IMG/VR virus record: IMGVR_UViG_3300020203_000004
Location: 1 to 35,983 of that record
DNA length: 35,983 nt
Reading direction: 5' to 3' (one strand)
Source of the DNA: a virus
A model generated the notes under the pieces. The model saw nothing but the letters and a program-made list of their open reading frames with translations, made no database searches and was not told the origin of the DNA. Below, piece after piece: positions 2,068 through 35,983 of this stretch (position 1 is its first letter; each line of letters begins with the position of its first letter). Both the position numbers and the translations under genes were made by a program.

Positions 2068-3222
2068 CTAAGTTCTGGTTAATCTCATAGTAAAACGCAA
2101 ATCGTTAGCCGCCGAGTTGGCACTAAAAACCCAAGTTACAATATCACCTGTAGCAACGACGTTTGCCGCCGAGGCGTTCGAGTCTCCTGGCGTGCTGGTA
2201 ATCGCTACGGCTGATAGGCCAGTCACTGAAACGCCGTTAATTTGAACCGCCAGCGTTATGGTCCCGCTTGACGTGCCCGCTCCCCCGACACTGTTAATGG
2301 TGTAGCCAAAAGCTGCCTTAGCATCAGCGTAGATAGTTTGGTTTGCCGGATTAGCAAGTGGAATGCTGCACGTCATAGCACTAACAAGAGTTGTGGCGTT
2401 ACCTACTGACGTTAACGCGCCAGTCAAGTTTGCGTTGGTTGTGACGTTGCCCGCCGTTAACCCGGCAGCTGTTCCCGTTAGGTTCGTTCCTACACCGGAG
2501 GCAGGTGTGCCGAGGATCATTGCAGCGCCAAAAGAGGTTAAGCTTGACGCCGTTACTCCTGCCGCGAGGGTGGCACCCGTTAGTGTTCCCGCTGCCGCCG
2601 TTACCGTGACGTTAGCCGTACCGTCAAAAGACGTTCCGTTAATTGTGCGCGCTGTTTGCAAAGCCGTAGCCGTACCAGCGTTACCAGAAACCGTGGTTTG
2701 GTCGCCTGTATTTGTACCTGAGTTTGTGCCAGTGATTTGACTTGTGAGAGCTAGTGTGCCAGTACCACCTGGGAGCGTGTGCGTGTTGAGTGTACCAACA
2801 CCCGCCATATTTCCAGTTGAGTCTGCTATAGTGACCACCGAGTTTTGAATGAGCTTACCCGTAGTGGTATCAAAACGAACAACCGCGTTGTCTGTCGCAC
2901 TGGCTGGCCCTAAGACGTCACCACTACCAGAAGAGGTCGACCATTTCATGCCGGTAGCTTCTGCACTATCAGCAGTCAACACCTGCCCGTTTGTTCCTAC
3001 GGCTAACCTTATGGCCGCGTTGGCGCCGGTAGCAGCGGCCAAATCTCCCTTAGCGTCCCAAATGGAATCTCCTGCTACGGAACCAGCGCCCGCTATAGGT
3101 AACGCGATACCGCTCTCTGTCATATATTTAAAAATATTAGCCGTAGTATCAAACCATAGGTAAACTTTCCCTAGGGCAGGAGTAGTCGGCTGATCGTTAA
3201 CTGAAAATCTTTGGATTGACAT
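2068..3222 (-). CDS. Tail fibre protein
   Basis: 384 residues dominated by Ala, Thr, Gly, Ser and Asn in short beta-like repeats (TGTNSGTNTGDQTTVSGNAG, ARTINGTSFDGTANVTV). This is the standard composition of phage fibre shafts. The N-terminal 40 residues (PTTPALGKVYLWFDTTANIF) resemble the virion-attachment or early repeat segment seen in many tail fibres of environmental phages. A GAGG ribosome binding site precedes the ATG. The C-terminal ~90 residues are less repetitive and may be the tip. The long open frames on the opposite strand here are a by-product of the composition. Function is assigned by composition and neighbourhood, so the fibre call is good but the receptor is unknown. Confidence 0.85.
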   Translation of the reverse strand: MSIQRFSVNDQPTTPALGKVYLWFDTTANIFKYMTESGIALPIAGAGSVAGDSIWDAKGDLAAATGANAAIRLAVGTNGQVLTADSAEATGMKWSTSSGSGDVLGPASATDNAVVRFDTTTGKLIQNSVVTIADSTGNMAGVGTLNTHTLPGGTGTLALTSQITGTNSGTNTGDQTTVSGNAGTATALQTARTINGTSFDGTANVTVTAAAGTLTGATLAAGVTASSLTSFGAAMILGTPASGVGTNLTGTAAGLTAGNVTTNANLTGALTSVGNATTLVSAMTCSIPLANPANQTIYADAKAAFGYTINSVGGAGTSSGTITLAVQINGVSVTGLSAVAITSTPGDSNASAANVVATGDIVTWVFSANSAANDLRFTMRLTRT

Positions 3223-3225
3223 GTA

Positions 3226-3414
3226 TTAGTCCTCTAGGATAAGGGTGCCCTCGATATTTAGAGCGCCCTCTAAAATAAAATCGCCAAACACGACCATTTG
3301 CTTACTTGCCGTAATCGTAACGGTAGTGCCCGCCGCAATATCTGAAAATCCACTGTGGTGGTCTAGTCCGCTGGCAGTACTGCCCGCCCCTGAAATATTG
3401 ATTGTACAGCTCAT
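3226..3414 (-). CDS. Small hypothetical beta-rich protein (62 aa)
   Basis: 62 residues, almost entirely beta-type sequence (TINISGAGSTASGL, GTTVTITASKQMVVFGDFIL) ending in ILED. It immediately precedes the fibre gene with three bases between them, so it may form a small cap or attachment domain for the fibre. No Shine-Dalgarno is visible before the ATG, and a possible -10 element lies only six bases upstream, so the message could be leaderless. No family recognised. Confidence 0.65.
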   Translation of the reverse strand: MSCTINISGAGSTASGLDHHSGFSDIAAGTTVTITASKQMVVFGDFILEGALNIEGTLILED

Positions 3415-3420
3415 GCAGGT

Positions 3421-3449
3421 AGTCTAGCACATGATTTTAATAAAATTAA
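3421..3449 (-). promoter_or_regulatory. Candidate leftward sigma70-type promoter before the fibre cluster
   Basis: On the minus strand, TTAATT (3449-3444), 17 bases, then TAGACT (3426-3421) preceded by TG two bases upstream, an extended -10 pattern. The predicted start point falls at about 3414, the A of the ATG of the next gene, which has no Shine-Dalgarno. The -35 match is weak, so this is a candidate only. Confidence 0.35.
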
Positions 3450-3532
3450 GGGTACCCCACTAAAAAGATAATCCGCTCGTCCATGAGGTTTTAGTCAGTT
3501 TGTGGGGTTAAGAGCTCTAGGCTAATCGTACT

Positions 3533-4579
3533 CTATTTTCTACTAAACCTCAAAGCTGCCGCGTTACAGTATACTTTTTCTAAAACCTTCGTGCCGGCGC
3601 CTTGTCGTGACATGAGCGCTAGTTTTTTCTTAGTCCAAATAAGCCTAAATCTAGGATCCTTGATATCATATTCTGAAATGAATATAGGAGTGTCGTGCTT
3701 GTCTGCCCAGTCTAAAAACGCCGGCCTATCGAAACTTAGGGCGTAACCTTTCGTGTCTTCATATGGGATATCACAGTAAATAATTGAGTTGGGCAGAATC
3801 TCTACCTTCTCATAACTTTTAGAGAAGTAAACTATCTTCTGCCGCAAGCCCTCTAAGCCTTGAACGCGCTCAAGGGCGAATAGGTGTTGCTGAGCTGCGA
3901 GCTGATCTAGGCCTTGCGCCTGCTCTATGCGCTCAAGACTTTCAATGCGCAAGCCCTCTAAGCCTTGAACGCGCTCAAGGGCGAATAGGTGTTGCTGAGC
4001 TGCGAGCTGATCTAGGCCTTGCGCCTGCTCTATGCGCTCAAGACTTTCAATGCTTTTAAGCTGGTTGCTTTTACCGCCCAAAAGTTGCACATGTCTCAAA
4101 AGCAGGCGGCGGTCTTTGATCGATGAAGATTCCTTAAAAGCATTCATTCCAAATGTCTTTTTAGCAACATCATCAAACTCATTGAAGACTATGGCCATAT
4201 GCATGGACTTCTTGTAAGATTCAATATTTTTACCAAATAAATAGTCTTTTCCGTTACAACTAAAGGACCAACATAGTTTAATATAGCCGTCTAAATCTTT
4301 TTTCTCTAAAAACTCTTCTCTACTAATCCATTTAGGTTTAAAAACTTCGTAAGAATATTTACCAGCAACTGCATTTTTAAAACAATCAATGATCTCTGGT
4401 TTTATTTCATTGTAATGAAATTGTTTAAAATCTTTTGATCTCCTAACAGCCATAGCGTGCGTTACCGCACCACCACCACCAAAGAGGTCGTAGAAGTGAT
4501 CAGCCGCTGGAAATATTTTAATTAGTTCGTCACACAGTGATTGTTTTGAGCCTTGATAAGGTAAGCCGTACTGCGACAT
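3533..4579 (-). CDS. dam: D12-class DNA adenine-N6 methyltransferase with internal leucine-rich duplication
   Basis: 348 residues. The N terminus has PYQGSK (7-12) and motif I DLFGGGG (31-37), the S-adenosylmethionine pocket of D12/Dam-type enzymes. The catalytic motif is DIPY at 270-273 in CDIPYEDTKGY, a variant of DPPY. The product should be N6-methyladenine in a short target such as GATC, which could protect phage DNA from restriction or mark replication. Between the target-recognition part and the catalytic motif sits a leucine-rich insert (177-246) made of two perfect 35-residue copies encoded by a 105-bp tandem repeat. Its ATG overlaps the TAA of the ParB-like gene (TAATG), implying coupled translation. 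Target sequence and activity are not deducible here. Confidence 0.9.
   Translation of the reverse strand: MSQYGLPYQGSKQSLCDELIKIFPAADHFYDLFGGGGAVTHAMAVRRSKDFKQFHYNEIKPEIIDCFKNAVAGKYSYEVFKPKWISREEFLEKKDLDGYIKLCWSFSCNGKDYLFGKNIESYKKSMHMAIVFNEFDDVAKKTFGMNAFKESSSIKDRRLLLRHVQLLGGKSNQLKSIESLERIEQAQGLDQLAAQQHLFALERVQGLEGLRIESLERIEQAQGLDQLAAQQHLFALERVQGLEGLRQKIVYFSKSYEKVEILPNSIIYCDIPYEDTKGYALSFDRPAFLDWADKHDTPIFISEYDIKDPRFRLIWTKKKLALMSRQGAGTKVLEKVYCNAAALRFSRK
3843..4052. repeat. Perfect 105-bp tandem duplication inside the methylase gene
   Basis: Copies 3843-3947 and 3948-4052 are identical base for base. The unit is a multiple of three, so the frame is kept and adds one 35-residue block beginning IESLERIEQAQGLDQL. 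Each block is itself made of shorter Leu-Glu-Arg elements. Zero divergence between copies indicates a very recent expansion. Confidence 0.95.
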
Positions 4580-9882: not shown

Positions 9883-9924
9883 TTATCCACAGCTTATCCA
9901 CAAGATATCCACAAGTTATCCACA
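9883..9924 (+). promoter_or_regulatory. DnaA-box array, probable replication origin
   Basis: TTATCCACA occurs at 9883, 9894 and 9916, with ATATCCACA at 9905. All are in one orientation and exactly 11 bp apart. Three match the bacterial DnaA box consensus TTATNCACA perfectly. Helical phasing close to one turn suits cooperative DnaA binding on one face of the DNA. It lies 156 bp upstream of the initiator gene, with an A-rich stretch from 9948 that could be the unwinding element. Confidence 0.85.
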
Positions 9925-9944
9925 GGGTTTATTGAACACCTAAA

Positions 9945-10013
9945 TCAATAAAAAAAGAAAACCTTGACCGTGAGGCCAAGGTTTTCTAAAATCAAATTTA
10001 CTAACAAATGATT
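9945..10013 (-). ncRNA. Predicted short leftward RNA beside the origin
   Basis: A leftward promoter (10048-10020) predicts a start near 10013. The transcript would meet, within about 30 bases, a perfect GAAAACCTTG/CAAGGTTTTC stem with a CTTTTTTTA tail (9986-9949). That gives an RNA of roughly 65 nucleotides with no ORF. It could be a replication primer, an antisense regulator or an attenuated leader. Sequence-based prediction only. Confidence 0.5.
9957..9986 (-). terminator. Intrinsic terminator, leftward
   Basis: GAAAACCTTG and CAAGGTTTTC form a 10-bp perfect stem, extended inward by two more pairs around a GTGA tip. On the minus strand it is followed by a run of seven T. On the plus strand the trailing bases are not T-rich, so it acts leftward. 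Confidence 0.75.
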
Positions 10014-10040
10014 GAGTCCATCATATCGCTTGCCGATAAA
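10012..10040 (+). promoter_or_regulatory. Candidate rightward promoter for the replication operon
   Basis: TTGAGT (10012-10017), 17 bases, GATAAA (10035-10040), giving a start near 10047 and a short leader with AAGGA before the ATG at 10080. It overlaps the leftward promoter, so the two should exclude each other. Confidence 0.5.
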
Positions 10041-10048
10041 AAAATCAA
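10020..10048 (-). promoter_or_regulatory. Leftward sigma70-type promoter
   Basis: On the minus strand TTGATT (10048-10043), exactly 17 bases, TATGAT (10025-10020): four and five of six consensus bases. It drives the predicted short RNA, or, with read-through of the terminator, the leftward small genes. Confidence 0.6.
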
Positions 10049-10079
10049 TCAAAAAAAGTAAAAATAAAAAGGAACCCTA

Positions 10080-11012
10080 ATGAGTAATAACGTTGGCTTT
10101 TACAAAATGCACAGAAACTGGCGGGGAAAACTCACCCCTTCGCAGGTTGGATATTTAAACTGTCTGTTACACGCTGCGAAATGGACGCGCGGAAAAACCG
10201 GAAACGGTGAACTAGAAATAAAGAGAGGACAGTTAATTTTGAACCTGAATCAGTTTGCAACATACTACGGCGGAAGTTGGGTTGCACTGCGCACTGCGCT
10301 GACGAAACTTGCGGAAAACAAAACAATCGTGCGCGAAATATTCGAAAATAGTGAACGAATCACCATCATAAATTACAGTAAATACCAGGACATACGAAAT
10401 AGTGGAGATGAGACTAGAGATGAGACTAGAGATGAGACTAGAGATGAGACTAGAGATGAGACTAGAGATGAGACTAGAGATGAGACTAGAGATGAACTTC
10501 GCTCCGAATCCTCCTTTAAAATCACAAGCTTAGACCCCTCTAAGAAAGGAAGAAAGGAAGAAGGTAAGAAGGGAAGAAAGAAAGAAGGTAAGAAACTAAC
10601 TCAGTCCACCGCTGACGCTCGGGTATCGCTTCGCGAACCCCTTAGTGATCATGACAACGTGCTTGGTTCTCGTTGGGCAGAATGGACGAAATCAGAATGG
10701 CCACACATGAACCCCAACCCAACAACCTATGCGGAGGCAATTAGGAAAACCAAAAAACAAACAGGGCTTAACGAGGTACAGCTTGACTATATTTTTAATT
10801 TCATAGTAAACGACCCTTTTTGGAAACCCAATTGTCAGTCGCCAGCAGGACTACTAAGGCCAAGTAAAAACGGAGTTCGCAAAATTGACAACGTGCTTGC
10901 GAAAATCAAAGACAAGAACAAGGTTGAAATTGCAATGATGAGCTGGGTGAAGCGTAAAGAGGCAGAAGAGGCTAACCCAGAACTAAAACCTAGAAAGGAG
11001 TACGCGTTTTGA
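10080..11012 (+). CDS. Replication initiator, lambda-O-like winged-helix protein
   Basis: 310 residues, AAGGA before the ATG. Residues 5-105 form the winged-helix pattern of phage O-like/replisome-organiser proteins: FYKMHRNW, then RGQLILNLNQFATYYG, WVALRTALTKLAENKTIV and ITIINYSKYQD. A linker follows with seven perfect DETR repeats (110-137) and a lysine-rich stretch (KKGRKEEGKKGRKKEGKK). The C-terminal part (about 200-275) contains LDYIFNFIVNDPFW and is the likely helicase- or partner-contact domain. First gene of the rightward operon, directly after the DnaA boxes, and followed with overlap by a helicase-loader candidate. The DNA repeats that encode DETR are themselves likely origin iterons, as in lambda where ori lies inside gene O. 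Confidence 0.85.
   Translation: MSNNVGFYKMHRNWRGKLTPSQVGYLNCLLHAAKWTRGKTGNGELEIKRGQLILNLNQFATYYGGSWVALRTALTKLAENKTIVREIFENSERITIINYSKYQDIRNSGDETRDETRDETRDETRDETRDETRDETRDELRSESSFKITSLDPSKKGRKEEGKKGRKKEGKKLTQSTADARVSLREPLSDHDNVLGSRWAEWTKSEWPHMNPNPTTYAEAIRKTKKQTGLNEVQLDYIFNFIVNDPFWKPNCQSPAGLLRPSKNGVRKIDNVLAKIKDKNKVEIAMMSWVKRKEAEEANPELKPRKEYAF
10407..10490 (+). repeat. Seven perfect 12-bp direct repeats inside the initiator gene (candidate iterons)
   Basis: GATGAGACTAGA is repeated seven times without any mismatch. The next 12 bases begin GATGAACT, a decayed eighth unit. Because 12 is a multiple of three, the encoded protein only gains DETR units. Position in the disordered linker of an O-like protein matches the place of origin iterons in lambdoid phages. 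Confidence 0.9.
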
Positions 11013-11539
11013 ATATTAGGATTTTTGCAGAAGCTATGTTGAGGTATAGCAAGGTTGTGGCTGGTAACAAGCCTGACTTTGCAGATGAGGACGTAATCGA
11101 GTTTTGGTATGACTCACTTAAGGATATCCCGCTTGAGCTCCTTGGTGTGGCCATTAAGAAGCTTTGCAAGGGAACACATTTTCCGTCCATCGATTCTATT
11201 CTGAAACAATGTGGTATGGCCGACGTCGAATGGAGTGAGGACGAAGTCGCGCGCGAGTTCATTCCGAAGATAGTAAAATTTGTCGAAAGGTTTGGTTACC
11301 CAAACGAAGGATCCGCAAGGCAGCATATCGGAGAACAGGGCTGGGGAATTATAACCTCTCTTGGCGGCTGGTCGTACTTGTGCAATATTTCTACGTATGA
11401 GGAATTCAATCGTATGCAACCACAATGGCGAGAAACCGCGAAGGTTTACCTAAAAAAAGTTAAGGCTGGCCTTGGCGATAAACCGCTCCACATAGATGGA
11501 CCAAAGCCACAAGGATTACTAATTGAAAATACTCACTAG
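11009..11539 (+). CDS. Putative helicase loader, G39P-like
   Basis: 176 residues, starting at a TTG that overlaps the initiator's TGA and has AGGAG nine bases upstream. The N-terminal region (FWYDSLKDIPLELLGVAIKK then GTHFPSIDSILKQC) matches the helical, DnaB-binding loader/inhibitor type found next to phage initiators (G39P of SPP1 and relatives). The middle has a GWGIITSLGGWSYLCN helix pair. No Walker motif is present, so it is not a DnaC/DnaI-type ATPase. Position between the initiator and ERF strongly supports a role in loading host DnaB. Family assignment is moderate. Confidence 0.65.
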   Translation: MNIRIFAEAMLRYSKVVAGNKPDFADEDVIEFWYDSLKDIPLELLGVAIKKLCKGTHFPSIDSILKQCGMADVEWSEDEVAREFIPKIVKFVERFGYPNEGSARQHIGEQGWGIITSLGGWSYLCNISTYEEFNRMQPQWRETAKVYLKKVKAGLGDKPLHIDGPKPQGLLIENTH

Positions 11540-15680: not shown

Positions 15681-15892
15681 TTTTCACTATTTTAAATACT
15701 GGGTATCTAAATGCCAGGGTGGAATCGGGATCGTGGTCGAGGTCGTGGTCGAGGTCGTGGTCCCAGTCATGGGCGAGGTCGGGATCGTGGTCGACTTCGA
15801 GGTCAAAGACGTGGGCGGTGTCGTGGTCATGGTCGATTTCGAGGTTGAGAGATAGATCGTGGATGATTTCGATTTCGAGGTTTGGAAAATAA
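15656..15892 (+). CDS. Dipeptide-repeat ORF, unit 4
   Basis: The frame opens at TTG 15656 inside the previous gene. The position matching the heads of other units (15677) is TTA, not a start. Head homologous to the others (VFTILNTGYLNARVESG against NQAILYSGYVQARPLS), then the clearest repeat: SWSRSWSRSWSQSWARSGSW and onward to ISRFGK. Codons alternate TCN/ACN/GCN with TGG/AGG. Either a TTG start is used or the unit is reached by a -1 step from the upstream gene. Confidence 0.5.
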   Translation: MVLAAESLVFTILNTGYLNARVESGSWSRSWSRSWSQSWARSGSWSTSRSKTWAVSWSWSISRLRDRSWMISISRFGK

Positions 15893-17648: not shown

Positions 17649-19313
17649 CTATTCGCCCTCATCTTCACCGCTGATTATTTTTCGATACTCAGGATCTTTT
17701 GATTGTAAAAGCTGATGCGTAACCGCAACCGCTGTACCTCCGCGCTGTATAGCTTTTTCAAGGGCTGGCCTGTACTTACCGAGCATTTCTGGTGTTTCCC
17801 TTATGAATTTTGAAAGTTTGTCGGTGGTAATGGCCGCCGTTTGGTTGCCGTACTTTTCACTAATCTTTTTTGCAGCAACAAAGGGAATCGCGAGCATGGA
17901 AAGGCTTGATGTTGCGATATTGTCGGTAAGGCTGAATAGTTTGTTGCCTTCTTCTCTCGCTGCCTTATTTCGTAAAAGTGTCTCGGTATTTTTGCCAATA
18001 CTAAATTTTTTGTTAGCGCCTTCTATCGTCTCTCGTAAGGTGGTTGGCAGGGCAGCGCCGGATTCGCCGATTCTAGTACCACCGCGCTTGTCCATTGCTG
18101 AGCCTGCGCGTTCAGCCGCCTCGTTCACGGATTCCCTTACACTAAAATAGATGTCTCGCGCCATATCTTGCGCCGCGTTGGTCCTGGTCTTGTCAAACTT
18201 AGATTTGACGTTAAGAGACTCAACCAGCCGCTGGCCATCGGCCATCGATATGTTGTCGTCTCCTCGACTAAGGATATTCTCAATCTCAGGTCGGAGTTTT
18301 TCCATGAGTTCTTGGGTGTCTTTGTACTGAGGATTCATCAGGTTTTTGTCTTTGTCGCTCAACACTTTCTTGGCGACACTTCTAGCAATCTCAGTCGGGT
18401 TAAGTTGGCTAGCACCTGCGTCGTCAATCACGCGGTAAGCCGCTGCCCTGTCTGCCATAGCGCCTTTTTTCACAGCTTCGTTTCTTGCGACTAAATCACT
18501 CGTGTTAGCTCCGAAAGATAGTATATCTTCGTCAAGTGCTTGACGTCCAACCGCTCTTGTCGCGTCACGTCCCATTTTCTTTTGAGTCGCGCGCTCTAAG
18601 CCTAAGGCCCTTGCTCCTTGCAGCTCTGCGAAGTCCTCCATACTATTAGCAACACCGCTAGCCCCCCCTTTGTATTTTGAAAGTAGATATTGTCCAACCT
18701 TGGAATCAGCCAGGGAATCTGTCACCCCGCCGACGGCCTTACCTAAGCCAAAACCTGCAGCGCCCCCGCCAGCACCGAGAGCAGTGCCCTTTAGTGTGTC
18801 GAGTGCTTGACCGCCAACGCCTTCCTCTTCTGTTCCTCCTAGCCCTGTCAGCGCGCCCTGTAAAGCGCCCTTGCCAACAACCGCGCCGAGCTGTGCTCCT
18901 TTCGCTGCGTTGAGCATGCCGAGTCCCGGGACAAAGGCCGTTCCTATTGCTCCGCCGATTTCTGCTCCCTGGTAAATGCCGGGGTTAGCCTCTTGAGCGC
19001 CCTTATATTGCTCACGTGATTCGTCTCTTCTTACCTTGTAGGTATCGCCAAAATCACTTAGCTTTCTGCCTCCAAATACAGTGTCCGAAGCGGCTTCAAG
19101 CCCTCCCGTCAGCTCGTCGGCAAAACCTAAAGAGGCTCCTTGCGCAAGCCCTCTAAGACCAGACTCAAGGCCCGTAACAGTAGGGCTATATTTTTTTAAA
19201 AAAGCTTTAGGATCAAAGGCAGCCTTAGGAAGGTCTTCGGCTAAGAATTTTTTAGGATCAAAAGCAGCCTTGGGAGTTTCTTCGGCCAAGAATTTTTTGG
19301 GATCAAAAGGCAT
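17649..19313 (-). CDS. Internal virion/ejection (pilot) protein
   Basis: 554 residues with GGGGTG before the ATG. N terminus has three 15-residue repeats (FDPKKFLAEETPKAA, FDPKKFLAEDLPKAA, FDPKAFLKKYS). It continues with a Gly/Ala-rich, membrane-active region (GAEIGGAIGTAFVPGLGML, then GALQGALTGLGGTEE) and a helical C-terminal half. That architecture fits podovirus ejection proteins that leave the capsid and help carry DNA across the envelope. Four such proteins lie in tandem (17649-22815), as in P22 (gp7, gp16, gp20) and T7-like phages. No lytic transglycosylase motif found. Assignment rests on composition and position. Confidence 0.75.
   Translation of the reverse strand: MPFDPKKFLAEETPKAAFDPKKFLAEDLPKAAFDPKAFLKKYSPTVTGLESGLRGLAQGASLGFADELTGGLEAASDTVFGGRKLSDFGDTYKVRRDESREQYKGAQEANPGIYQGAEIGGAIGTAFVPGLGMLNAAKGAQLGAVVGKGALQGALTGLGGTEEEGVGGQALDTLKGTALGAGGGAAGFGLGKAVGGVTDSLADSKVGQYLLSKYKGGASGVANSMEDFAELQGARALGLERATQKKMGRDATRAVGRQALDEDILSFGANTSDLVARNEAVKKGAMADRAAAYRVIDDAGASQLNPTEIARSVAKKVLSDKDKNLMNPQYKDTQELMEKLRPEIENILSRGDDNISMADGQRLVESLNVKSKFDKTRTNAAQDMARDIYFSVRESVNEAAERAGSAMDKRGGTRIGESGAALPTTLRETIEGANKKFSIGKNTETLLRNKAAREEGNKLFSLTDNIATSSLSMLAIPFVAAKKISEKYGNQTAAITTDKLSKFIRETPEMLGKYRPALEKAIQRGGTAVAVTHQLLQSKDPEYRKIISGEDEGE
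19178..19310 (-). repeat. Three 45-bp degenerate repeats encoding the pilot N terminus
   Basis: Each 45-base unit encodes FDP-K-(K/A)-FLAE...PKAA. Copies are diverged at several bases, so this is an older duplication than the methylase repeat. Possibly a multimerised attachment or binding segment. Confidence 0.8.
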
Positions 19314-35801: not shown

Positions 35802-35983
35802 CGAGGATCCTTTTTTGTGCTGCAATACTAAAATCAAGCCTCACGTTATGCCTTGACATTGGCTCTTCGACAAACAAAATATTTGCTTTGTCCCCATTCA
35901 CCATAAGGTCAACCCTTGAGAATGTGCCGTCCTTGTGTTTCATAACGCCCATTGCAACAAACCAGCCAAAACCGGTTTCTGCC
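35791..35983 (-). CDS. Small basic hypothetical protein, 3' part (same gene as 1-195)
   Basis: This is the C-terminal part of the 86-residue gene that starts at 195 on the other side of the junction. The window end repeats its middle, so bases 35857-35983 are the duplicated copy. The stop TAA (35793-35791) overlaps the ATG of the membrane protein. Confidence 0.75.
   Translation of the reverse strand, partial: AETGFGWFVAMGVMKHKDGTFSRVDLMVNGDKANILFVEEPMSRHNVRLDFSIAAQKRILDVL
35857..35983. repeat. Terminal direct repeat, right copy
   Basis: Identical to bases 1-127. Remove one copy to obtain the circular sequence. Confidence 0.95.

Follow-up and report, generated by a model that had tools for sequence, protein, structure and literature searches.

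The 2006 review by Weigel and Seitz is said to be the main one on phage replication modules. In phage lambda, the origin (ori) lies within gene O, and its iterons adjoin a 40-bp A+T-rich region (PMC5043065). Between lambda and the Stx phages the number of iterons varies (four or six) and the length of the protein varies with it: in Stx phages six iterons go with an O protein that is longer to match, and mutating the iterons there without altering the protein abolishes plasmid origin activity (PMC7466680). In phage SPP1, oriL is located in gene 38; the gene of the initiator (G38P) contains direct repeats and an AT-rich element, and a loader, gp39 (G39P), cooperates (PMC6316719). For plasmid pSK41, the winged-helix N-terminal domain of the DnaD-like Rep protein (RepA_N family) binds boxes in the middle of its own gene, the linker encoded by these boxes is dispensable as protein, and the C-terminal domain contacts the replication machinery (PMC5703833). 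In Francisella phage KIRK, the predicted origin has repeats in a replication gene (ORF43) with an internal amino-acid repeat, and a neighbouring gene encodes an Inhibitor_G39P domain (PMC7924643).

Here we compare these systems with a locus in IMG/VR virus record IMGVR_UViG_3300020203_000004; the whole stretch of 35,983 nucleotides that was analysed is called the window. The locus resembles lambda O and ori-lambda in several respects: the putative origin lies within the initiator gene, between the parts encoding the N- and C-terminal domains, the candidate iterons are followed by an A-rich segment that may be an unwinding element, the C-terminal domain is weakly similar, and a probable loader gene comes next. 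The lambda iterons, however, are ~19-bp inverted repeats at a spacing of 20–24 bp, whereas the window has seven direct repeats of 12 bp that abut without a spacer, and the N-terminal domain of its initiator belongs to the DnaD-like/replisome-organizer group, unlike that of lambda O. Membership of the lambda O family proper was considered and rejected, as 19-bp inverted-repeat iterons at 20–24 bp are absent. SPP1 (compared here by its published description) has a second origin, oriR, whereas no second copy of the 12-bp array is present in the 36-kb window. pSK41 differs in being a plasmid with an initiator of another sequence family and four Rep boxes (the window initiator has no Pfam match to RepA_N), and KIRK ORF43 differs in its repeat and its host, its origin being likewise a predicted one. 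By analogy, an in-gene iteron origin in the window would most likely work like lambda ori, SPP1 oriL or the origin of pSK41.

The initiator gene and its genome

The gene in question (10080–11012, + strand) encodes a protein of 310 a.a. that profile matches and an AlphaFold model identify as an initiator, or replisome organizer. It matches the profile of phrog_2514 (DnaD-like helicase loader; E=2.7e-15, residues 5–259) and that of phrog_391 (O-like; E=2.5e-7). Its domain plan consists of a winged-helix N-terminal domain (residues ~5–108), a disordered linker (~110–190) and a lambda-O-like C-terminal domain (~190–300). The last of these is assigned mainly by the profile match; the direct match between the C-terminal part and O proteins of lambdoid phages is weak (E~1). 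AlphaFold, with a 41-sequence alignment as input (the window protein and 40 relatives), gave a confident winged helix up to residue ~108, disorder up to ~190 and then low-confidence helices: pLDDT is ~75–94 over most of residues 11–100 and mostly <50 over 110–230, and the confident helix–strand fold of the N-terminal domain spans residues 20–103. In a PDB fold search the matches were generic winged-helix regulators, none better than E=0.02.

All of the 41 aligned proteins (41/41) match phrog_2514. The window initiator fits this group both by its profile match and by a winged helix that ends in a characteristic motif (ITIINYSKYQ, fitting ITIxNYxxYQ); with the lambda-O-type plan it shares the tandem DNA repeats in the linker part of the initiator gene. 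A probable helicase loader gene follows at 11009–11539 (+ strand) and overlaps the initiator stop; it is weakly G39P-like, its match to PF11417 (E=0.0041) falling short of the curated cut-off, and the order of initiator and probable loader is that of lambda and SPP1. An exact peptide-word search of viral and bacterial contigs gave no close relative of the window initiator, no GenBank phage was found with DNA near-identical to the window, and an Rfam search gave no match.

The record has an exact 127-bp terminal direct repeat (1–127 is identical to 35857–35983), so the genome looks complete; the repeat probably arose where the assembler overlapped the ends of a genome that is circular or permuted, and a near-identical contig (L002) spans the terminal junction. 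Relatives found by terminase and capsid (L002–L004 and L260–L272) share the virion module. No initiator match was found in the capsid/terminase relatives searched whole, many of which are fragments. One contig with the same virion module (L005, 900–4200) has a different early region in the place of the initiator: it carries two HNH genes, an ORF of 173 aa that matches no family and a long stretch in which no clear gene is seen (~2840–3540). The lack of initiator matches in the capsid/terminase relatives suggests that the replication module is swapped between these phages. The minimum of the GC skew falls near 9 kb, where gene orientation turns; because skew follows the gene strand, it was left out as evidence for an origin.

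The window contains other repeats. At 3843–4053, a 105-bp segment of a DNA methyltransferase gene is perfectly duplicated in tandem, which keeps the frame and repeats 35 aa; contig L002 has two copies of this unit as well, slightly diverged. TRF also reports, at 15731–15845 and 19206–19312, a TCGAGG-type array (6/12/42 bp) and 2.4 copies of a 45-bp unit.

Seven 12-bp units in the linker

Seven perfect contiguous copies of GATGAGACTAGA are found at 10407–10490 (+ strand), exactly where a preliminary description of this DNA had placed seven identical 12-bp repeats within the initiator gene. The array is in frame and encodes DETR seven times within the ORF 10080–11012. TRF, run on the window, reports it as 10405–10495 with period 12, 7.6 copies and 100% matches, the figure of 7.6 arising from a partial match that flanks the seven full units. 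With up to two mismatches allowed, the unit has just two sites outside the array in 36 kb (each with two mismatches); the total of nine matches is reached in none of 100 shuffles, for which the mean is 2.45. The linker repeat score of the window is 79; synonymous-codon shuffles of this gene average 42.9, and none of 300 reaches 79. The seven units are iteron candidates.

An eighth unit, GATGAACTTCGC (10491–10502, + strand), is diverged and encodes DELR: D, E and R are kept, with changed codons for E and R. The preliminary description spoke of a decayed unit at the 3' end. The unit is indeed diverged, but its change is in part synonymous drift.

It had also been argued that perfect identity favours a role of the DNA. 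Such a role is backed by the relatives described below, but the identity itself is not proof of it because recent slippage yields the same result. The chance that seven independently drawn DETR units share all four codons, given the codon usage of this phage, is 1.4e-11, a calculation that slippage would make moot. The identity of the seven units probably also reflects recent in-frame expansion, and in one gene it has no power to separate a DNA role from recent slippage; nor can the frame alone, at an in-frame pitch of 12 bp, separate DNA-level from protein-level repetition in this phage. The array might then be a coding minisatellite, that is, a flexible DETR linker grown by slippage, with no DNA role and with replication starting elsewhere. 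Perfect in-frame 12-bp copies are what recent slippage predicts, the eighth unit would have drifted in the absence of DNA constraint, and an unrelated viral gene carries 12-bp DETS repeats that are nearly perfect, so coding minisatellites of this quality do arise outside initiators.

The DETS-type array (L007, 2943–3057; 9.6 copies, 96% identical) was the single pattern match when IMG/VR was searched for three consecutive DETR units under any codons; no other IMG/VR contig with three DETR units was found.

DNA repeats at the same place in relatives

Relatives were drawn from IMG/VR by the peptide motif ITI[IV]NYxxYQ at the end of the winged helix, blind to repeats (a first multi-family initiator alignment was too divergent as a scan query). 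The scan is a sample, made of the matches listed, and comprises 61 clusters after removal of redundancy. We scored tandem repeats of 10–13 bp in the 150 bp after the motif (match +1, mismatch -1, threshold ≥14). Such a linker repeat is present in 82% of the 61 sampled clusters and in none of 404 control segments, taken from other genes of the same contigs. Against shuffles that preserve the protein and the codon usage of the gene, 42 of the 61 clusters are significant (p≤0.01, i.e. ≤3/300): 33 at 11 bp and nine at 12 bp. The window and seven phage-record homologs bring the set to 69, of which 48 beat the synonymous shuffles. The best period between 5 and 30 bp (n=69) is 11 bp in 38 cases, 12 bp in 18 and 22–24 bp in 10, whereas in control coding sequence just upstream the best periods are spread and show no such preference.

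An 11-bp unit shifts the reading frame with each copy, so this repetition is kept at the DNA level and is not explained by repetition of the protein. Tandem DNA repeats persist at this position in most of the sampled relatives, even as the protein and the reading frame of the repeat vary, and selection on the out-of-frame linker repeats acts on the DNA. The preliminary description had named, as the outcome to look for against its reading, relatives that keep DETR and lose the DNA repeats. No such case was found in the IMG/VR search for three DETR units; the converse was seen, DNA repeats without protein repeats. The 61 independently sampled relatives lend good support to its lambda-like reading of the array as a protein linker and likely iterons.

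The units of the relatives have a weak core in common, RACNACARA, with an information of 4.6 bits (shuffles reach at most 3.7). The window unit does not fit this consensus (54% of shuffled units score equally well), so no conservation of letters is claimed. What the window appears to share with its relatives is the place, the pitch and the architecture, with all parts in the same order, but not the letters, which are lineage-specific. That the window unit falls outside the family consensus could be counted in favour of a coding minisatellite. We nevertheless consider a minisatellite without DNA role unlikely: the repeats of the independent relatives lie at the same place, mostly as out-of-frame 11-bp units, and are absent from the controls, and the protein is an initiator, a gene class with established in-gene iterons. 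Among described phages, TRF finds a 12-bp array in the linker of Listeria A118 gp49, an 11-bp array in Staphylococcus phi11 orf15 and a 15-bp array in TP901-1 rep; in lambda O it finds no array above threshold. Vibrio phage 1.135.O and Shewanella phage 3/49 are examples of cultured phages whose initiators have an 11-bp array.

Beyond the array there is usually an A-rich stretch of weak pairing. Where relatives carry an array, the 60 bp that follow it are rich in A (AT of 0.70, then 0.66, then 0.54, for a baseline of 0.54–0.58), and in 57% of relatives, versus 11% expected, the 40-bp stretch of lowest stability in the gene comes directly after the array. In the window, an A-rich polypurine tract at 10539–10600 (+ strand; found by TRF and composition), with 8/24-bp repeats, 87% purine and 65% AT, is a candidate unwinding element that may correspond to the AAGAATGAA-type repeats seen in relatives. 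Its instability is only moderate (z about -1.1 to -1.7), and it is found 43 bp downstream of the array, farther than usual. An alternative unwinding element is the least stable 50 bp within the initiator gene, just 5' of the array (10335–10384, + strand, z=-2.4).

Many relatives have 8–9 bp A-rich repeats, AATAATGAT and AAGAATGAA, after the iterons (e.g. L093, 115–170 bases past the motif start). A is central in many of the triplets of these repeats, which could be DnaA-trio-like or merely hydrophilic codons.

DnaA boxes and the probable origin of replication

Upstream of the initiator gene there are three exact TTATCCACA DnaA boxes and one with a single mismatch (9883–9924, + strand, by TRF and direct match), at a pitch of 11 bp. 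Between the boxes and the gene, and overlapping the gene start, lie the least stable 50 bp of the region 9.5–11.1 kb (10040–10089, z=-2.8). A terminator-like hairpin is also found between the boxes and the gene (9956–9987, - strand), such sites being no more numerous than in shuffles. The boxes and the AT-rich intergenic DNA (9883–10089) could thus form the main opening site together with host DnaA, leaving the array an accessory role in initiator loading or autoregulation. Box arrays of this pitch are found in at least 120 IMG/VR contigs (loci L136–L255), and a full scan for a 14-bp control pitch gave 86 contigs, so the 11-bp pitch is the commoner. Among the matches listed, 80 out of 96 such arrays are outside ORFs, and they are enriched between divergent genes (29/78, versus 133/1130 for other gene pairs); both features, like the low stability of 10040–10089 and the lack of a box pair in capsid relatives without the initiator, favour an opening site at the boxes. 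But the neighbours of tandem boxes are diverse and include terminase genes, so that the boxes may regulate transcription, and no enrichment of DnaA boxes is seen near the initiators of relatives (0.033 boxes/kb, versus 0.051/kb elsewhere). A capsid query against bacterial genomes, aimed at the host, gave no match. We regard an origin of this kind as rather unlikely, though it overlaps with an origin at the array where both sites act jointly. The preliminary description had proposed a two-part origin with DnaA boxes: the boxes are present in the window and a composite origin is possible there, but the case for it comes from this one genome, and the boxes are not a trait of the initiator family.

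Short matches to the tandem boxes of the window are found in Escherichia phage P483 and several Microviridae.

The array at 10407–10490 is very probably the initiator-binding part of a replication origin located inside the initiator gene. The repeat, its position, the domain plan of the protein and the family-wide DNA-level repeats at the linker are direct observations. We infer binding, opening, helicase loading and origin activity, which may proceed as follows. The array sits in the segment encoding the disordered linker, and because such a linker tolerates nearly any hydrophilic sequence, the DNA could carry iterons at little cost to the protein. The winged-helix domain would bind the 12-bp units, each of which spans roughly one turn of the helix, and several initiators would align along one face of the DNA. 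Their binding would strain and open weak DNA close by, either the polypurine tract on the 3' side or the AT-rich segment on the 5' side, and the O-like C-terminal domain, together with the product of the next gene, would recruit the replicative helicase. The 12-bp unit could expand or contract in frame.

More tentatively, a general rule may hold, one that we find plausible but lean somewhat against: DnaD-like (phrog_2514) initiators would hide the origin in the linker as direct repeats of one helical turn (11 bp, sometimes 12 or 22–24), on which initiators form a side-by-side filament on one face of the DNA, unlike the separate dimers on the spaced iterons of lambda. The window would be a recently expanded, in-frame 12-bp case. 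No statement of a family-wide 11-bp rule was found in the literature searched, which took in few subscription papers. The in-gene iteron origin is already known as a kind, and the family-wide regularity is the more useful result. A probable origin has been located for a complete-looking genome of an uncultured phage, and the repeat-in-linker plan turns up very often within a large phage initiator group, which would make origin prediction from sequence simple. If the rule is true, the gene itself could reveal where the origin lies in thousands of phages.
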